Part shown: one piece after another, positions 41,457 through 50,579 of the stretch
How the letters are laid out: the number at the start of each line of letters is the position of its first letter
Position numbering within the stretch: the stretch's first letter is position 1
Assembly: GCA_945903265.1 (NCBI GenBank)
Contig: CAMDNQ010000010.1
Coordinates: 70,372 to 134,371, forward strand
Length of the DNA stretch: 64,000 bases
Source: Candidatus Sulfopaludibacter sp. SbA3
GTDB taxonomy: Bacteria; Acidobacteriota; Vicinamibacteria; Vicinamibacterales; UBA2999
Reading direction: 5' to 3'
Notes under the pieces: model-generated
Database searches by the model: none
The model's input: only the letters and a program-made list of their open reading frames with translations
What the model was told of the DNA's origin: nothing
Translations under genes and position numbers: made by a program

Positions 41457-41786
41457 CTAGCTCTCCTTCTCGCCCGTGCGAATCCGGTAGCTTTCCAGCA
41501 CCGGGAGCACGAACACGCGGCCGTCGCCGATCTCGCCTGTTCTCGCCGCCCCGACGATCGCCTTGATGGCATCGTCGGCAATCGCATCGGGAACGACGAT
41601 CTCGATCTCCATCTTCGGGAGCAGACTGACGTTGTACTCCTTGCCGCGGTAGATGGCCGTGTGGCCCTTCTGCTTGCCGTGGCCGCGCACTTCCGTCACG
41701 GTCATTCCCGAGATATTCAATTTGGCGAGCGCGTCCTTGACCTCGTCCACCTTGTTCGGCCGGACGATGCTCTTAATCAGCTTCAT
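41457..41786 (-). CDS. glnB: Nitrogen regulatory protein P-II
   Basis: P-II integrates nitrogen and energy state by binding 2-oxoglutarate and ATP/ADP, and its T-loop can be uridylylated by GlnD. The 109-residue protein has all signatures: RGHGKQKGHTAIYRGKEY with Tyr51, the IVVPDAIADDAIKAIV segment and GEIGDGRVFVLPV. GGAGG lies upstream of ATG 41786. It follows amtB by 48 nt, the usual amtB-glnK pairing, so it is functionally GlnK-like, although GlnB and GlnK cannot be separated from sequence alone. Confidence 0.95.
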   Translation of the reverse strand: MKLIKSIVRPNKVDEVKDALAKLNISGMTVTEVRGHGKQKGHTAIYRGKEYNVSLLPKMEIEIVVPDAIADDAIKAIVGAARTGEIGDGRVFVLPVLESYRIRTGEKES

Positions 41787-41834
41787 ACGATTCCTCCAAT
41801 ACAGACCTGCCGTGGCGACATCACTGCGCGCCGC

Positions 41835-43085
41835 TTAAAACGAACCGTGGCGCGTTGCCGTTGCGCCGCCGACGTGGAGATACGCTTCCTCTCCGTGGCT
41901 CGTGATATCGAGCCCGGTTCCCTCTTCCTCGACCGTCGCGCGCAACGGCATCACGAGGCCAATCAGCTTCAGCAGAATGAAGCTCGCGCCCGCACTGTAA
42001 ACGAACGCGGCGAGCACCGCGGTGCCCTGAATCAACACCTGCCCCGGATTGCCGGCGATGGCGCCGTCGAACAGTCCGTTGATGCTCTTCTCCGCGAAGA
42101 CGCCCGTCAAGAGGGCGCCGACCGTCCCGCCGACGCCGTGGGCGGCCACCACGTCGAGCGAGTCGTCCAGTGACGTCTTGGCGCGGATGATCAGCGCGAA
42201 GTAGCTCGGTACCGCGGCGATGGCACCCAGGAAGATCGCGTTGATGGGGCTGATGAAGCCGGCGGCCGGCGTCACGGCGACGAGGCCGACGACGATCGCC
42301 GTGGCGGCGCCGACGGCGGTCGGCTTACCCGACCGCATCAGGTCGAGGAAGGTCCAGACGACCAGCGTGGCCGCAGGCGCCAGCATCGTGGTGACGAACG
42401 CCAGGCTCGCGATCGGGCCGGCCACGAGCGCGCTGCCCGCGTTGAAGCCGAACCAGCCGAACCAGAGCAGGCCCGCGCCCAGCAGCGAGAACGGCACGCT
42501 GTGGGGCAACACGGACTGCGAACCGTACTCGCGTCGCTTCCCCACCACAATGGCCGCCACGAGCGCCGCGGCGGCGGCGTTGACGTGCACCACCGTGCCG
42601 CCGGCGAAGTCCCACGCGCCCATGTCGGCGAGCCATCCGCCGCCCCACACCCAGTGGGCAACCGGCGCGTAGACCACGATCGACCAGAGCGAGATGAAGA
42701 TGACGTAGGCCGAAAACCGCATGCGCTCAACAATCGCGCCTGAAATCAGCGCGGCGGTGATGATGCAGAACGTCCCCTGAAACGCCATGTAAAGCATGTG
42801 CGGGAACGTCAGCGGGACGATGGCGCCCGTCTCGGCGAGCCCGACGCCGTTCAGGAACGCGAACGACATGTCGCCGATCCAGTTGCTGCCCGGCGTCAGC
42901 GCCAGCGAGTAGCCAATCAGGGCCCAGAGCACGCCCACAAACCCCAGTGAGATGAAACTCATCATCATGGTGTTGAGCGCGTTCTTGGACCGCACCAGGC
43001 CTCCGTAGAAGAAAGCCAGCGCCGGTGTCATGAGCAGCACCAGCGCGGTCGATATCAACATCCATGCTGTGTCAGCTTGATTCAT
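41835..43085 (-). CDS. amtB: Ammonium transporter AmtB (copy 1)
   Basis: A trimeric inner-membrane ammonium channel. The 416 residues have 11 predicted helices, the DFAGGTVVHVNA signature with the first pore His, and DVVAAHGVGGTVG with the second. The C-terminal tail (EEEGTGLDITSHGEEAY) is the part that P-II blocks. The N-terminal 160 residues are almost identical to copy 2, so the pair is a recent duplication or is under gene conversion. A terminator lies just upstream, between glnD and this gene. Confidence 0.95.
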   Translation of the reverse strand: MNQADTAWMLISTALVLLMTPALAFFYGGLVRSKNALNTMMMSFISLGFVGVLWALIGYSLALTPGSNWIGDMSFAFLNGVGLAETGAIVPLTFPHMLYMAFQGTFCIITAALISGAIVERMRFSAYVIFISLWSIVVYAPVAHWVWGGGWLADMGAWDFAGGTVVHVNAAAAALVAAIVVGKRREYGSQSVLPHSVPFSLLGAGLLWFGWFGFNAGSALVAGPIASLAFVTTMLAPAATLVVWTFLDLMRSGKPTAVGAATAIVVGLVAVTPAAGFISPINAIFLGAIAAVPSYFALIIRAKTSLDDSLDVVAAHGVGGTVGALLTGVFAEKSINGLFDGAIAGNPGQVLIQGTAVLAAFVYSAGASFILLKLIGLVMPLRATVEEEGTGLDITSHGEEAYLHVGGATATRHGSF

Positions 43086-43099
43086 TCCTCACCTCGGTC

Positions 43100-43125
43100 A
43101 AAAAAGCCGCCGTAGAGGGCGGCGG
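43100..43125 (-). terminator. Intrinsic terminator between glnD and amtB copy 1
   Basis: Minus strand GCCGCC-CTCTAC-GGCGGC followed by TTTTTT, ending 15 nt before the amtB start codon. Because it lies in the leader of amtB it might also work as an attenuator for read-through from glnD. Confidence 0.75.
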
Positions 43126-43155
43126 TCCTCGCGGTTGCGCTCGTCACCGTGCCTG

Positions 43156-45702
43156 TCACAGTGCCTCGAGCGTGGTCTGGAGATCGACGGTCAGGGCGCG
43201 CTGCTGCTCGGGATCGAGCTTGGCGCCGGCCCTGCTGATGTGGAAGACGTCAATCGCGCGCTCGCCTTCCGTTGAAATCAGCACGAGTTCGACGTTGCAG
43301 CCGTGCCGGGAGATCACACGGCTGATGCGATAGAGGAGTCCCAGGACGTTCGAGGCGACGATGTCGAGGATCGTGTAGCGCTGCGAGACGTCGTTGTCCA
43401 TGCGCACGACCGGCGCGATACGCGACGCCGTGCGGGACAGGAGCACGCCCTGCTCGCGGCCGCGCAGGAGGTCGGTGACTTCCGAGCGGCCGGACACCAC
43501 GTCCTGCAGCACGTACAGGACCTGGGCGTGCGCGTCGGGGTTCAACGCCAGGAACCGTTCATCGTCGGTGAACTGGAAGACGTCGAGGATGAGCCCCTTC
43601 GGGTTGGTCAGCGCCTGGCCGCGCAGGATGTTCATCCCGAACGACGAGAGCACGCCGCAGATGTTGGAAAACAGGAACTGCTTGTCGAGCGTGACGGCAG
43701 CGAGCGTCCAGACGCCGTCCGTCTGGTCGAGCGACAGGTGCACTTCGTCCGGACCGATGTCGCGCGCCAGGCGCACGTGCTGGTAAATCGCCGCGCGTGG
43801 AAACAGCTGCAGGTACCGCTGCGGGAGTCCCTCGAGAAAGCTCGTAATCTCGGCGTCGGGCAGGTCGGCGGGCCGCCACGTCAGGAGCTCGGTCAGCCCA
43901 GACTGATTGCGCTCGATCAGTTCGTCACCGTAGCGCTGCGTGAGGTGGTTGTACGTGTCGACGTAGAGCCGCCAGACCAGTTCTTCCTTCCACGGCGTCA
44001 ACGTCTCTGGGCTCACGGCCTCGATGTCGGCCAGTGTCAGGAGACACAACATCTTCAGCCGCTCTTCGGTGCCAAGCATCCGCGCGAAGTCTTTGACGAT
44101 CTCGGGATCCTCGGTATCGCGCCTGAAGGCGACGAGCGACATCTTGAGGTGCTCTTCGATCAGGAACAGCACCATCTCGCGCGCTTCCGCCGGAAGCTGC
44201 AGCCGGTCGAGGACACCCGCCGCCATACGGACGCTTTCGGGAGCGTGCTCCTCGTCGCGCCACTTCCCGACGTCGTGAAGGAGCAGCGCCAGCACCAGCA
44301 GTTCCGGATTCGTCACACTCGCCGCCACGGCCTTGAACCGCTCGCGCCCCTTGATATCGGCGTTGACGAGACGTTCGAAGTTCCGGATCGTGAGGAGCGT
44401 GTGCTCGTCGACGGTGTACTTGTGGTAGAAGTCGCGCACGACCCGCCACGAGATGGCATCGAACTCCGGAAACACCTGCCCCAGCAGCCCGCAGTCGTGC
44501 ATCTGCGACAGCGCGACGTAGAGGCCGGGGCGCGGTTTCAGCAGCCGCAGCAGCGCGCTCCGATCGCGCGCCTCCGCCACGAAATCCTCCGGCTTGTAGC
44601 GCTCGACATGCTGCTGAATGCATGAGAGCGCTTCATCAGTCACTTCCGTGCCCGCGTCGAGCGCCGCCTGAAACGCGCAGATCCACGACGCCGGCGTCCG
44701 CGCCGCCTGCACCGGATCCAGAAAACGGATGCCGTCTCGGGACAGCCCGAGATTGGGACCGACCGGCATGGGTGCGGTCCGCCGCGCCCACGCCAGCGTC
44801 CGGCTGACGATGCGCGCGTGGCGGAAGTAGTCGCTCATCAGCCGCTCGACGCGGTGATGGGGCTCTGCGCCGGCATACTCGAGCAGGTCCGCGGTGCGTT
44901 CCTGAAGCTCGTGGCTCAGCACGTTGTGGTTGCGTCCGGCCTCGAGGTGCAGGATCGACCGCACCCGGAAAAGAAATTCCTCGGCTTCGTCGACCCGGCC
45001 CGAATCCGCCGGGCCGCGCTGGAGCAGGAGCGGATCGGTCAACGCGGCGATCGTCCGCGCCGCCATCAGATCGCGAAGCGCCCCGGGCGCCTCTTTGACG
45101 TCCGGTTCGAGCTGATACAGCGTGTCGTTGAACTGCGCGTGGCGTTCTTCGACGAGCGTGATCAGCGATTTCACGATGTACGCGTGGGTTACCGGCGTAT
45201 GGAACATCGCCTGCAGCCGGTCGAACAGCGCCGGCGCGCCGGCGACCAGGCGCGCATCGAGCAGGGCCAGGAGGAATTCGGGGTTATCGATTTCCAGCTC
45301 CGCAAACTCGTCGATTTCGCGGACCTGATGCCCGACGACCACGCCGACGTCCCAGAGCGGATGCAGGAAATTGCGGAGGAACCGTTCTTCAGACGCCCCG
45401 ATGCGGCCGCCAAACAGCAGCAACAGATCGATGTCCGAATGGAGACTGAGATGGCGCCGCCCGTATCCGCCGAGCGCGATGACCGCCACAGGGCGATCCG
45501 GAACACCCGCCTCCACGTACAGGTCGGCGAGCAGGACGTCGACGCGCGAGGCGTGCCGCTCGAGTGCCGCACGGCCGCCGGCACCGCGCTCGACCTCGGC
45601 ACGCAGCGCACTGCGCGCCTCGTCGAGCGAGGTCCTCAGCGAGGCGCCCGCGCTCGTCTCGGCAGTCGGCATGTGGAGAGGATCCTTGGGGTCAACAGGC
45701 AT
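43156..45702 (-). CDS. glnD: P-II uridylyltransferase / uridylyl-removing enzyme GlnD
   Basis: Modifies P-II according to glutamine level. It has the nucleotidyltransferase motif ALGGYGRRHLSLHSDIDLLLL, a GlnE-like helical region, an HD domain (LLLHDVGKWRDEE around residue 480) and two ACT domains at the C-terminus (LDKQFLFSNICGVLSSFGMN, and TILDIVASNVLGLLYRISRV). Length 848 with ATG 45702. A perfect 14-bp hairpin ends 5 nt before this ATG and would hide any ribosome site. ATG 45672, with AAGGA 10 nt upstream, is a good alternative start. Confidence 0.92.
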   Translation of the reverse strand: MPVDPKDPLHMPTAETSAGASLRTSLDEARSALRAEVERGAGGRAALERHASRVDVLLADLYVEAGVPDRPVAVIALGGYGRRHLSLHSDIDLLLLFGGRIGASEERFLRNFLHPLWDVGVVVGHQVREIDEFAELEIDNPEFLLALLDARLVAGAPALFDRLQAMFHTPVTHAYIVKSLITLVEERHAQFNDTLYQLEPDVKEAPGALRDLMAARTIAALTDPLLLQRGPADSGRVDEAEEFLFRVRSILHLEAGRNHNVLSHELQERTADLLEYAGAEPHHRVERLMSDYFRHARIVSRTLAWARRTAPMPVGPNLGLSRDGIRFLDPVQAARTPASWICAFQAALDAGTEVTDEALSCIQQHVERYKPEDFVAEARDRSALLRLLKPRPGLYVALSQMHDCGLLGQVFPEFDAISWRVVRDFYHKYTVDEHTLLTIRNFERLVNADIKGRERFKAVAASVTNPELLVLALLLHDVGKWRDEEHAPESVRMAAGVLDRLQLPAEAREMVLFLIEEHLKMSLVAFRRDTEDPEIVKDFARMLGTEERLKMLCLLTLADIEAVSPETLTPWKEELVWRLYVDTYNHLTQRYGDELIERNQSGLTELLTWRPADLPDAEITSFLEGLPQRYLQLFPRAAIYQHVRLARDIGPDEVHLSLDQTDGVWTLAAVTLDKQFLFSNICGVLSSFGMNILRGQALTNPKGLILDVFQFTDDERFLALNPDAHAQVLYVLQDVVSGRSEVTDLLRGREQGVLLSRTASRIAPVVRMDNDVSQRYTILDIVASNVLGLLYRISRVISRHGCNVELVLISTEGERAIDVFHISRAGAKLDPEQQRALTVDLQTTLEAL

Positions 45703-45706
45703 GATG

Positions 45707-45745
45707 CGGGAATACCGATGCGGGGAATCTTCATCGGTATTCCCG
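45707..45745. promoter_or_regulatory. Perfect 14-bp inverted repeat at the glnD 5' end
   Basis: CGGGAATACCGATG (45707-45720) and CATCGGTATTCCCG (45732-45745) with an 11-nt loop. It fills the gap between the gcw_chp gene and glnD, ending 5 nt before the tracked glnD ATG. There is no T-run. It could control translation, end transcription or bind a protein. Confidence 0.7.
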
Positions 45746-45756
45746 TGTCGTGCAAC

Positions 45757-46566
45757 CTAGAACGCGAATCCGAGACCGATCGACGCGATCCCTGCGGAGT
45801 CCTGGCCGTTGTAGATCTTGACGGTGTCGCCGAAAGCCTGGAACTCGACCCCGCCGTGAATGTTCGCGTGCGCGCCCAGGGGCACCGTGACGAGGCCGCC
45901 GATGCTGAAGTAACCGAACGTCTCGTCCTCGCCCGCCGCCTCGTAGTAGTTGCTGCCGCTGAGGCCGACCTTCACCGGCACCGCCAGCGATGCGCGCGCG
46001 CCGGAGTAGCCGGGCGCGACGCCCAGCTCGATGTAGGTGCCTTTCGCCGTGCCAGCGTCCGCCTGCCCTTCATCGGTCAACTCGAAGGCGACCAGGCCGT
46101 AGGGATTCAGCGCCACGCCCCCAACCGGGCCCGGCGTCGAAAGCTTGACGGCAAGTTCCTTCACGTGCGCGAAGCGATCCGCCGGGCTGGTGTACGACGT
46201 ATAGGTGAACCCGAGCGTGGCGTTCGAGAATCCGAATCCAAGGGTGCCGTAGATATCGGATTCGTACCACTTGTTGTCGTCCAGAGCGGTATGAAACGCG
46301 TTCCAGCTCCCGACATTGAGGGTCATCGTCTTCAGGCCGCCGTCGCCGCGGTAGGGCGTGAACCCAAGGTCGACGAATGGCCAGATGGACATGCCTTCCG
46401 TGTTCTGACGCAGCCCGCGGAAGTTGTACTGGTTCACGAAGTCCAGTCCACCGGTAACGACGACGACTGGAGGCGGATCCTGGGCCCACGCCGGCGTGGC
46501 CGTCGCCATCACCGTGAACACTGCCAGAGCCGAGAATCCAAACCGCATTGCGCGCATAAACGACAT
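45757..46566 (-). CDS. Outer-membrane beta-barrel protein of the gcw_chp (TIGR02001-like) family
   Basis: A 269-residue exported protein: signal peptide (MRFGFSALAVFTVMATATPAWAQ), then the pattern VVTGGLDFVNQYNFRGLRQNTEGMS and repeated strands of alternating residues, ending in the aromatic GLGFAF typical of barrel proteins. This family is often found beside amt and P-II genes, as here, and may form an outer-membrane route for a nitrogen compound; that role is not established. GGGAGG lies 10 nt upstream of ATG 46566. Confidence 0.7.
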   Translation of the reverse strand: MSFMRAMRFGFSALAVFTVMATATPAWAQDPPPVVVVTGGLDFVNQYNFRGLRQNTEGMSIWPFVDLGFTPYRGDGGLKTMTLNVGSWNAFHTALDDNKWYESDIYGTLGFGFSNATLGFTYTSYTSPADRFAHVKELAVKLSTPGPVGGVALNPYGLVAFELTDEGQADAGTAKGTYIELGVAPGYSGARASLAVPVKVGLSGSNYYEAAGEDETFGYFSIGGLVTVPLGAHANIHGGVEFQAFGDTVKIYNGQDSAGIASIGLGFAF

Positions 46567-46638
46567 TAGTCTGTGCCTCCCTAGGTTGTGACGAATGGCG
46601 GCGGCGCTACGCCGCGCCGCCCCCGAATGTAATGAGTG

Positions 46639-47937
46639 CTACGCGTCGCTCTTGACCGGGTGCAGCATCGGCTGCAGGTTTGAGGCGCCGCCGACGGCCG
46701 CAATCGCGGGCGTCGTACCGCCCGTGTGCAGATAGGCCTCTTCACCGTGCTGCGTGAGGTCGAGGCCGACGCTCTCCTCCTCACTCGCCGCACGGAGCGG
46801 CATCACGACGCTAATCAGCTTGAGCAGAACAAAGCTCATGACGCCGCTGTAGAGAATCGCCGCCAGAACCGCCGTGCCCTGAATCAGGACCTGGCCCGGA
46901 TTGCCGGCGATCGCGCCGTCGAACAGGCCATTGATGCTCTTCTCGGCGAAGACACCCGTCAGCAGGGCGCCGACCGTGCCGCCGACGCCGTGCGCGGCGA
47001 CGACGTCGAGCGAATCGTCCAGTGAGGTCTTGGCCCGCAGAATCAGCGCGAAGTAGCTCGGAACCGCCGCAATGGCGCCAAGGAACATCGCATTCATCGG
47101 GCTGATGAAGCCGGCCGCCGGCGTGATGGCGACGAGGCCGACGACGATCGCGGTGGCCGCGCCGACGGCGGTCGGCTTGCCCGAGCGCATCAGGTCGAGC
47201 ATGGTCCAGACGATCAGCGTGGCGGCGGGCGCCAGCATCGTCGTCACGAAGGCGAGGCTCGCAATCGGGCCGGCGACGAGCGCGCTTCCCGCATTGAAGC
47301 CGAACCAGCCGAACCAGAGGAGGCCGGCGCCAAGCAGCACGAACGGCACATTATGCGGAAGGAGCGACGACGATCCGTATCCGGAACGCTTGCCGACCAC
47401 CAGTGCCGCGACGAGCGCCGCGGCTCCCGCGTTGACGTGCACGACGGTGCCGCCCGCGAAATCCCACGCACCCATGTCGGCGAGCCATCCGCCGCCCCAG
47501 ACCCAGTGCGCCAGCGGCGCGTAGACGACGACTGACCAGAGGCAGATGAACGTCAGGTAAGCGGGGAACCGCATCCGCTCGACAATCGCGCCCGAGATCA
47601 GCGCGGCGGTGATGATGCAGAAGGTGGCCTGGAAGGCCATGTAGAGCATGTGCGGGAACGTGAGCGCCACGATCGCGCCGGTCTCGTCAAGGCCCACGCC
47701 GTTCAGAAACGCCAGCGACAGATCGCCGATCCAGTTATTGCCGGCCGTGAGGGCCAGCGAATACCCCACTGTCGCCCAGAGCACACCGACGAAGCCGAGC
47801 GAGATAAAACTCATCATCATGGTGTTGAGCGCGTTCTTGGAGCGGACCAGGCCGCCATAAAAGAACGCGAGGGCCGGGGTCATCAACAGGACCAGGGCCG
47901 TCGAGATCAACATCCATGCGGTGTCAGCTTGATTCAT
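46639..47937 (-). CDS. amtB: Ammonium transporter AmtB (copy 2)
   Basis: A 432-residue close paralogue of copy 1, with the same pore motifs (VVHVNAG, AAHGVGGTVG). It differs mainly at the C-terminal tail, which is longer (HTGGTTPAIAAVGGASNLQPM). It is the first gene of the minus-strand nitrogen cluster. The upstream gap holds a candidate sigma-54 promoter and a long leader hairpin, which suggests it is induced when nitrogen is limiting. Confidence 0.95.
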   Translation of the reverse strand: MNQADTAWMLISTALVLLMTPALAFFYGGLVRSKNALNTMMMSFISLGFVGVLWATVGYSLALTAGNNWIGDLSLAFLNGVGLDETGAIVALTFPHMLYMAFQATFCIITAALISGAIVERMRFPAYLTFICLWSVVVYAPLAHWVWGGGWLADMGAWDFAGGTVVHVNAGAAALVAALVVGKRSGYGSSSLLPHNVPFVLLGAGLLWFGWFGFNAGSALVAGPIASLAFVTTMLAPAATLIVWTMLDLMRSGKPTAVGAATAIVVGLVAITPAAGFISPMNAMFLGAIAAVPSYFALILRAKTSLDDSLDVVAAHGVGGTVGALLTGVFAEKSINGLFDGAIAGNPGQVLIQGTAVLAAILYSGVMSFVLLKLISVVMPLRAASEEESVGLDLTQHGEEAYLHTGGTTPAIAAVGGASNLQPMLHPVKSDA

Positions 47938-48102
47938 TTCCTCACCTCAGTAGTCAGCGTGCGCCGGTGGATACGGTGCCCAGTCGCGGCGCGGGGGCAT
48001 CCGGGCTCCTGTTCCCCACGACCACGCGACGCGACTGGGATTCGAGTTGTTAAAACGGGAACGGCGGCGATGGTGCCGTCGTGACGCGTCGCATCTGTTT
48101 GA

Positions 48103-48117
48103 GCAAGATGGACGCCA
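48103..48117 (-). promoter_or_regulatory. Candidate sigma-54 promoter for amtB copy 2
   Basis: Minus strand TGGCGTC-CATC-TTGC, followed by T: perfect TGGC and TTGCT with correct spacing against TGGCACG-N4-TTGCT. The predicted start, about 48091, gives a leader of about 150 nt that contains the 10-bp stem hairpin. Confidence 0.55.
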
Positions 48118-48201: not shown

Positions 48202-48350
48202 CGACATAATTGTCGTAACTCGAATTAACGTCGACATCATTGTCTGATTGGTCGAATGCCTTGGAACCGCGTGCCGTGTCCCACGATTTTCGCCGCGCGA
48301 TGTGTACGACATCTTTGTAGCTCAGTACGAATCTGACGACACAAATGTCG
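48202..48350. repeat. Four CGACA-N4-TGTCG dyads in two pairs
   Basis: Centres at 48208.5 (CGACA-TAAT-TGTCG, perfect, ACGACA..TGTCGT extended), 48238.5 (CGACA-TCAT-TGTCT), 48313.5 (CGACA-TCTT-TGTAG) and 48343.5 (CGACA-CAAA-TGTCG, perfect). Each pair is exactly 30 bp apart and the pairs are 75 bp apart. They look like tandem sites for a dimeric regulator. Confidence 0.75.
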
Positions 48351-48482
48351 AGTATCGACACGCCACCGGCGCCTGACTATGATGCGTTTCGCGCGTCGCC
48401 GGGTTTGCTCCCAGCGGGCCCGGTCCGACTCATCCGCTTCAGGCGCCAGGACTTAGCCCGGTCGGTCAGGAGGGGTACCCGT

Positions 48483-50579
48483 ATGAAGGTCTACGACGCA
48501 ACGAGCATCCGCAATGTGGCTCTGGTCGGCCACGGGGGGTGCGGCAAGACACAGCTGGTCTCCGCACTCTTGTTCGCGGCCGGCGCCGTCAATCGCCTCG
48601 GCAAGGTTGACGACGGATCGACGACCACCGACTTCGACGACGAAGCCATCACCCGCAAGCACACCCTCGCAGCCAGCCTCGCCCACGCCGAGTGGCGCAG
48701 CACAAAAATCAACATCATCGATACCCCCGGATTCGCGAACTTCCTGACCGATGCCCGCTCGGCGTTGCGCGTCGTCGAAGGCGCGCTCGTCACCGTGGAT
48801 GCGGTCGCGGGCGTCGAAGTACAGACGGAAAAGCTGTGGGAGGAGGCGGCAGGGGTCAATCTGCCGCGCATCATCGCCGTCAACCGGCTGGAGCGCGAAC
48901 GGGCAAGCCTCGATCGCACACTGGAGGCGCTTCGCAGCCATCTCGCCCGCGAGATCGTCCCGATTCAGCTGCCGCTCGGCGAAGAGCGGGGCTTCACGGG
49001 CGTCGTGGATCTTGTCGCGATGAAAGCCATCTCGTTCCCGGCCGACGGCAGCGGCAAGCCGACCGAGGGCGAGATTCCCGCGGAGCTCGCCGACCGCGCG
49101 ACACAGGCGCGCGAGCAGCTGATCGAGATGGTGGCGGAGGTCGACGAGACGCTGATGGAGGCCTTCTTTGCCGAGGGCACGCTGACGCAGGAGCAGCTGG
49201 TGGCCGGTCTCCGCTCCGCCACGACGGCAGGCCGTCTGTTCCCGCTCGTCTGCACGTCCGGACTGCACGTGATCGGCATTCAGCCGCTGCTGGATTCCAT
49301 CGTGAACTACGTGCCGTCGCCGGCGGAACGCGACTTCCCCGCCGTGTCCAGGGACGGCGCCGAAACGACGGTGAAGGCGTCCGATTCCGGACCCTATTCG
49401 GCCTTTGTCTGGAAAACGATTGCGGATCCGTTTGCGGGACGCATCACGATGCTGCGCGTCGTCTCGGGAACGCTGAAGTCGGATTCGACGGTGCACAACC
49501 TCCAGCGAAACACCGCGGAACGGCTCGGGCACCTGCTCGCCCTCCAGGGCAAGAGTCAAACTCATGTCGCCGACCTGAAAGCGGGTGATCTCGGCGCGGT
49601 GGCCAAGCTTAAGGACACCCATACCAACGACGTCCTGGCCGACAAGGCGACGGCCGTCCGGTTCACCGATATCAAGTTCCCGGAACCGGTGATTGCGTAC
49701 GCCATCGAGCCGAAGACGCGCGGCGACGAAGAAAAGATCAGCACGGCGATGCAGCGGCTGCGGGAGGAGGATCCGACCATCGGGTACTCGCGCGATCCGC
49801 AGACCCACGAGCTGCTGCTGTCAGGGCAGGGTCAGATCCATATCGAAGTCACGGTGGCCAAGTTGAAGCGCAGGTTCGGGGTGGAAGTGCTGCTGAAGCC
49901 GCCGAGGATTCCGTATCGCGAGACGATCATGGCGGCGACGGAGGCGCACGGCCGGCACAAGAAGCAGACCGGGGGACACGGACAGTTCGGTGACTGCAAG
50001 ATCCGCGTGGAGCCGCTGCCGCGGGGCAGCGACTTCCAGTTCGAGGACGACATCTTCGGCGGCTCGATCCCGCGTCAATTCGTGCCGGCGGTGGAAAAGG
50101 GCATCCAGGAGGCGCGGATGCGCGGCTTTCTCGCCGGGTTCCCGATGGTCGACTTCAAGGCGACGGTGTTCGATGGCTCGTATCACCAGGTCGACTCCAA
50201 CGAACTGTCGTTCAAGATGGCCGGATCGCTTGCGTTCAAGGACGCCATGTCCCGGGCGCGGCCAACCATCCTCGAGCCAATCATGAAGGTCGAGGTCTAC
50301 GCGCCCAGCGACTTTGCCGGCGACCTGATGGGCGACCTGAACGGCCGGCGTGGACGCATCGCCGGCATGGATACCCGCGGGCCGATGACCGTCATCCGCG
50401 CGCAGGTGCCGATGTCGGAGATGCTCAGCTACGAGCAGCACCTCACATCGGCGACGGGTGGCCGGGGCACGTATCACATGGAGTACTCGCACTACGAAGA
50501 AGTGCCGCAGCACCAGCAGACGAGAATCATCGCGGCAGCCAGGGCGGAACGCGGCCACGAGGTCGCGGAGGAAGCCTGA
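48483..50579 (+). CDS. fusA: Elongation factor G paralogue (EF-G2 type)
   Basis: A 698-residue translational GTPase with all EF-G domains. The G1 motif is GHGGCGKTQL, with Gln where EF-G usually has Thr, switch II is DTPGFANF in place of the usual DTPGHVDF, and the G4 motif is NRLERERA in place of NKxD. These changes mark the divergent EF-G2-like group rather than the main fusA. ATG 48483 is preceded by AGGAGG; the track start at 48345 runs into the dyad region and is rejected. The main EF-G gene normally lies in the str operon, outside this window. Confidence 0.9.
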   Translation: MKVYDATSIRNVALVGHGGCGKTQLVSALLFAAGAVNRLGKVDDGSTTTDFDDEAITRKHTLAASLAHAEWRSTKINIIDTPGFANFLTDARSALRVVEGALVTVDAVAGVEVQTEKLWEEAAGVNLPRIIAVNRLERERASLDRTLEALRSHLAREIVPIQLPLGEERGFTGVVDLVAMKAISFPADGSGKPTEGEIPAELADRATQAREQLIEMVAEVDETLMEAFFAEGTLTQEQLVAGLRSATTAGRLFPLVCTSGLHVIGIQPLLDSIVNYVPSPAERDFPAVSRDGAETTVKASDSGPYSAFVWKTIADPFAGRITMLRVVSGTLKSDSTVHNLQRNTAERLGHLLALQGKSQTHVADLKAGDLGAVAKLKDTHTNDVLADKATAVRFTDIKFPEPVIAYAIEPKTRGDEEKISTAMQRLREEDPTIGYSRDPQTHELLLSGQGQIHIEVTVAKLKRRFGVEVLLKPPRIPYRETIMAATEAHGRHKKQTGGHGQFGDCKIRVEPLPRGSDFQFEDDIFGGSIPRQFVPAVEKGIQEARMRGFLAGFPMVDFKATVFDGSYHQVDSNELSFKMAGSLAFKDAMSRARPTILEPIMKVEVYAPSDFAGDLMGDLNGRRGRIAGMDTRGPMTVIRAQVPMSEMLSYEQHLTSATGGRGTYHMEYSHYEEVPQHQQTRIIAAARAERGHEVAEEA

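Follow-up and report, generated by a model that had tools for sequence, protein, structure and literature searches.

Four 14-bp dyads in the gap between an ammonium transporter gene (amtB2) and a gene for an EF-G paralogue in Candidatus Sulfopaludibacter sp. SbA3 are likely to be upstream enhancer sites for a sigma-54-dependent ammonium-assimilation operon, where they would be bound by a GAF-AAA+-Fis activator related to NifA and AnfA. These dyads, which lie in a 64,000-nt window (the whole stretch of DNA that was analysed), form two pairs. The distal pair consists of dyad 1 (48202-48215, perfect, CGACATAATTGTCG) and dyad 2 (48232-48245, CGACATCATTGTCT), with centres at about -117 and -147 from a predicted sigma-54 start, and the EF-G-proximal pair of dyad 3 (48307-48320, CGACATCTTTGTAG) and dyad 4 (48337-48350, perfect, CGACACAAATGTCG), with centres at about -222 and -252. 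Two of the four 14-mers are perfect and two have one mismatch each, their consensus is (C/A)(G/T)ACA-N4-TGT(C/A)(G/T) and the spacing inside both pairs is exactly 30 bp. An earlier sequence-only reading had given the same four positions, two perfect dyads and two 30-bp spacings, all of which are exact, and had argued that such spacing is unlikely by chance. This argument stands, since no pair scoring at least 19/20 (spacings 15 to 60) arose when the 545-bp gap was dinucleotide-shuffled 3000 times, and the spacing is kept across genera. If no more than one mismatch in 16 positions is allowed, the 3.5-Mb genome has two 30-bp pairs, both of them within the amtB2–EF-G gap, and the paired motif is therefore not scattered at random, which a genome scan had been proposed to reveal. 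The single perfect dyad (CGACANNNNTGTCG) is another matter, with 18 occurrences in the genome, and wherever its context outside the gap was looked at (10 cases) it falls within a called ORF, as GAC...GTC codons in GC-rich DNA would lead one to expect. A lone motif match therefore carries little meaning, and a regulon defined by the single motif was rejected on these grounds.

It is these scattered single dyads that would speak for chance repeats, a reading that the shuffles, and above all conservation in relatives and in held-out genomes, reduce to a negligible probability. EF-G orthologues were taken from 40 related genomes and oriented. In all 12 same-family genera with an extractable gap and a nitrogen operon beside EF-G, 30-bp dyad pairs are kept, 11 having both pairs and one (L028) the EF-G-proximal pair only, although these genomes are related and such counts are not independent. 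Scanning spacings from 14 to 79 gave a clear maximum at 30 bp. The interval between the two pairs varies from 105 to 191 bp across genera and the DNA between them changes, and the dyads are therefore islands of conservation. Two pairs were also found in four out of four held-out loci (L280, L282, L286 and L339, of 80 named loci), which contributed nothing to motif derivation. The alignment of homologous gaps that had been suggested as a test thus bears the dyads out, and on this comparative evidence they are real, forming two evolutionarily conserved pairs rather than chance repeats. The distance between the two pairs tends towards whole numbers of helical turns (Rayleigh p 0.003-0.01 at 10.5 bp, in related genomes), which is suggestive only. 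Some Amt promoters that have no EF-G beside them (L166, L168, L172) carry the second pair too. On the EF-G side of the distal pair, a tail resembling GATTGGTCGAATGC is kept as well in several genera (48246-48259 in the window; L018, L019, L021, L280, L282).

The genes downstream of the distal pair form a candidate operon for ammonium transport and assimilation, amtB2-torF-glnD-amtB1-glnK (41457-47937, minus strand), with intergenic gaps of about 50 to 70 bp. It starts with amtB2 (46639..47937; PF00909, TIGR00836), followed by a gene for a TorF-like outer-membrane protein (45757..46566), which was named by eye, has no Pfam or NCBIfam match and stays in the operon in relatives. Next come a glnD-like PII uridylyltransferase gene (43156..45702; PF08335, and TIGR01693 at 482.9 bits, short of the 519.4 cutoff), a second ammonium transporter gene, amtB1 (41835..43085), and, as last gene, glnK/glnB for PII (41457..41786; PF00543). 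The two Amts are 89% identical, amtB2 leading the five genes and amtB1 standing second from the end. In relatives, amt, torF and glnD tend to remain grouped, and the leading gene is sometimes torF or a distant Amt (about 33% identical); where that distant type leads, it sits behind the same promoter.

This promoter is a predicted sigma-54 (-24/-12) element, TGGCGTCCATCTTGCT, at 48102-48117 on the minus strand. It has the GG-N10-GC form and faces amtB2, and its sequence is conserved between genera, as is the number of base pairs that separate it from the distal pair. In all 11 two-pair genera a box (typically TGGCGTCCATCTTGCT) faces the nitrogen operon, at a distance of 84-90 bp to the distal pair in all but one (L026, 78 bp), and in three of the four held-out loci it is found at 86-88 bp. 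When all loci are pooled, the histogram of pair-to-box distances has 15 cases in the 80-89 bp bin and at most four in every other 10-bp bin, a peak within the range of some 80-200 bp upstream, with distance kept, that activator sites would occupy. The sigma factor itself is encoded in the genome (rpoN, PF04552 at G000:C1:294917-295390). From the predicted box, transcription would start near 48091. The sequence-only reading had placed the dyads where sigma-54 activators of amtB bind, which a sigma-54 promoter at a fixed distance corroborates, and 117-252 bp upstream of the amtB start, which holds for the predicted transcription start and not for the start codon at 47937, from which they are about 271-406 bp away. 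A genome scan with a strict sigma-54 consensus gave fewer matches than the control and is therefore useless alone as a regulon finder.

The EF-G paralogue (48483..50579, plus strand) has an AGGAGG just upstream of 48483, which is probably its true start since this position is conserved and has a good ribosome site; the longest reading frame begins at 48345, within dyad 4. Its putative sigma-70 promoter is TCGACA-N17-TATGAT (48355..48383), whose TATGAT is kept before EF-G genes of the family. A rival proposal is that the amtB side is incidental and that it is the EF-G paralogue which is controlled, by a repressor or an activator at the dyads. In its favour, the proximal pair stops 5 bp short of the EF-G -35 box, and four genera keep this pair at a constant position with respect to TATGAT. 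However, anywhere from 32 to 140 bp lie between this pair and TATGAT across genera, EF-G orthologues without a neighbouring nitrogen operon have no convincing dyads, and Amt promoters away from EF-G keep their pairs, all of which makes this proposal improbable. The EF-G-like gene, upstream of which the sequence-only reading had also placed the dyads, is thus probably a bystander rather than the main target, as far as comparison of orthologues can tell, and was rejected in that role. In three genera (G007, G005, G018; loci L289, L290, L321), the gene divergent from EF-G is the GAF-AAA+-Fis activator itself. There, the activator–EF-G gap measures only 120-190 bp and has no dyads.

What binds the dyads is very likely an activator, and the evidence points to a NifA/AnfA-type GAF-AAA+-Fis sigma-54 activator as best candidate. 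Running a 44-position profile of the pairs over the 40 genomes gave matches at promoters of genes for such activators (L224, L228, L230, L231, L232) and at loci where the activator adjoins Amt (L222, L223, L227). In Pfam terms, the activator is composed of GAF (PF01590/PF13185), AAA+ (PF00158) and Fis-type HTH (PF02954) domains, with intact GAFTGA (or GAFTDA) and Walker A motifs. Its distribution follows that of ammonium transporters, as it is present in 25 of 32 genomes with Amt vs none of eight without (Fisher 8e-5). Pairs scoring at least 14/20 were found upstream of Amt in 20 of the 25 genomes with the activator vs none of the seven without it (p = 2e-4), a set that overlaps the discovery set, with co-occurrence counts that are not independent in related genomes and one of the 20 (G017) probably being spurious. 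Two genomes (G031, G033) are counterexamples, carrying activator and Amt without a good pair. Pairs with sigma-54 boxes also lie upstream of Amt genes that are not beside EF-G, and pairs are found upstream of PII and glnD genes too (L225, L219).

The same operator recurs at the promoter of the activator gene, where a 30-bp pair lies close to the start codon (z ~6.6 at spacing 30, against 1.4 for a control stretch). Most of these own-promoter pairs lack a sigma-54 box, a hint at self-repression or fine tuning, and the activator would probably tune its own gene via the same kind of pair. In a phylum-wide sample, 55 of 199 genomes have the activator. In families outside the order, which were not used for motif derivation, its promoter often has pairs (e.g. 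TTACAAAATTGTAA-N16-GTACAATTTTGTAG, z ~7.4), the operator taking the form TACA-N4-TGTA, and in 10 of the 20 regions examined, amt, PII, glnA, glnD or gltB is found no more than a few kb from the activator gene. In the genome under study, the activator gene is partial (G000:C37:19771-21135; L064, L266), 79% identical to the 523-aa copy in G028, and cut by a contig end, and its promoter is therefore not readable.

Could another protein bind the same enhancer? NtrC commonly controls amtB in Proteobacteria, and the genome has about 20 sigma-54 activators (some 19 besides the candidate), several of which adjoin histidine kinases, so that an NtrC-type response regulator, or some other sigma-54 activator, is conceivable in this role. 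At E. coli glnAp2, the sigma-54 promoter of a nitrogen gene, NtrC dimers have two strong sites that lie roughly 110-140 bp upstream and about three turns from each other, and both the pairing and the distance are similar here. Against NtrC, its half-site in E. coli is another one than that of the dyads, which recur phylum-wide at the promoter of the GAF activator, and the best NtrC-like orthologue (AAA+ part about 50% identical) also turns up where Amt or dyads are lacking (e.g. in G020, G023, G034, G036) and therefore does not track the sites. On this evidence about NtrC, we regard this alternative, although the most serious one, as unlikely. The candidate itself is no NtrC, having a GAF instead of a receiver domain and scoring 334 bits with TIGR01818, for which 558.6 are needed. 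Even less probable, to a very marked degree, is a CRP/FNR-family or other one-domain dimer. Its FNR sites have the same 5-4-5 geometry, but their half-site is not the same, positions of about -117 and -147 at a fixed distance from a sigma-54 promoter are unusual for that family, and it is a sigma-54 activator family that tracks the motif. The dimeric regulator that the sequence-only reading deduced from the dyad form is therefore upheld as activator-site geometry, whereas the likeness to FNR sites which it remarked on looks coincidental, the closest published site being that of AnfA.

AnfA is indeed the best point of comparison for the GAF-AAA+-Fis candidate. In Rhodobacter capsulatus, AnfA recognises TAC-N6-GTA, with two sites at the anfH promoter (PMC7294313), and this half-site spacing is that of the dyads when they are written (G/T)AC-A-N4-T-GT(C/A). 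Both proteins combine a GAF domain, a sigma-54 AAA+ domain and a Fis-type HTH, as VnfA does, and in both systems a sigma-54 promoter is preceded by two dyad sites. They differ in their targets, since AnfA controls the Fe-nitrogenase, whereas here the targets are ammonium transport and assimilation (amt, PII, glnD) rather than an alternative nitrogenase, and a search of the 40 genomes for the nifH family gave nothing above cutoff. They also differ in that the GAF cysteine motif of AnfA is mostly absent, being missing in five of seven orthologues, with three close cysteines in the other two (G026, G038), as judged by cysteine positions and not against the exact published motif. As for NifA, TIGR01817 is the best-scoring NCBIfam model for the GAF and AAA+ parts, and three orthologues score 516.9, 519.2 and 504.3 bits, just under the curated equivalog cutoff of 528.85, and the candidate is therefore not called NifA. 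In contrast to NifA, which binds TGT-N10-ACA (PMC2820453), the operator here is ACA-N4-TGT, nitrogenase went undetected, and the TIGR01817 match stops before the DNA-binding end, which fits the differing operator. A parallel from another phylum is DVU1949 of Desulfovibrio vulgaris, described (PMC4641369) as a one-component sigma-54 activator with predicted control of nitrogen metabolism/transport and autoregulation, and likened here by that predicted role rather than by sensor domain or motif.

If the GAF-AAA+-Fis activator acts as we think likely, each 14-bp dyad would bind one dimer, and the 30-bp spacing, about three helical turns, would place two dimers side by side, which may help to seed the AAA+ hexamer. 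By DNA looping, this assembly would then reach RNA polymerase-sigma-54 at 48102-48117 and switch on amtB2-torF-glnD-amtB1-glnK. The second pair may be (i) an extra enhancer module or (ii) a site common to the divergent side. The activator would probably sense nitrogen status by way of its GAF domain, on which PII/GlnD would act, a plausible loop by analogy because the operon encodes both PII and the PII-modifying GlnD, and PII inhibits AnfA via the GAF domain in R. palustris (PMC12093980).

In the literature, we found no description of this dyad operator or its regulator, and no paper in which ammonium transport is tied to a NifA-like activator in Acidobacteria, which are among the commonest soil bacteria. 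The window supplies a concrete operator, promoter, operon and candidate regulator, the last being a NifA/AnfA-type activator that, to go by genomic evidence, apparently serves ammonium assimilation in non-diazotrophs. A NifA/AnfA-like protein over ordinary ammonium uptake, with nitrogenase undetected, bears on the origin of nitrogen-fixation activators. A wider reading, which we offer tentatively as a fair guess that could well fail, is that nitrogen assimilation (amt, PII, glnD, glnA, gltB) in much of the Acidobacteriota might be governed chiefly by a one-component activator of this type, and not by NtrC, with 30-bp (G/T)ACA-N4-TGT(C/A) pairs as sigma-54 enhancers and auto-operators, PII gating via GAF and no involvement of nitrogen fixation. 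If this were true, nitrogenase activators might have been recruited from such a regulator.

Two minor observations concern the profile matches. Tandem 30-bp repeats in coding DNA, with GACAACATCGTC-like units, can be mistaken for the paired motif and account for false matches (G000:C2:218828-218929; G011:C20:72849-73071; G017:C111; G022:C169; L220), and matches at 30-bp steps that resemble such repeats were discarded (G011:C20, G017:C111, G022:C169, G009:C37, G024:C28, G024:C43, G000:C2:218828). Three other loci (L215, L217, L229) have pairs with sigma-54 boxes 85-89 bp off, at genes without an obvious tie to ammonium (e.g. efflux-like genes beside L217), and these are possible further targets.
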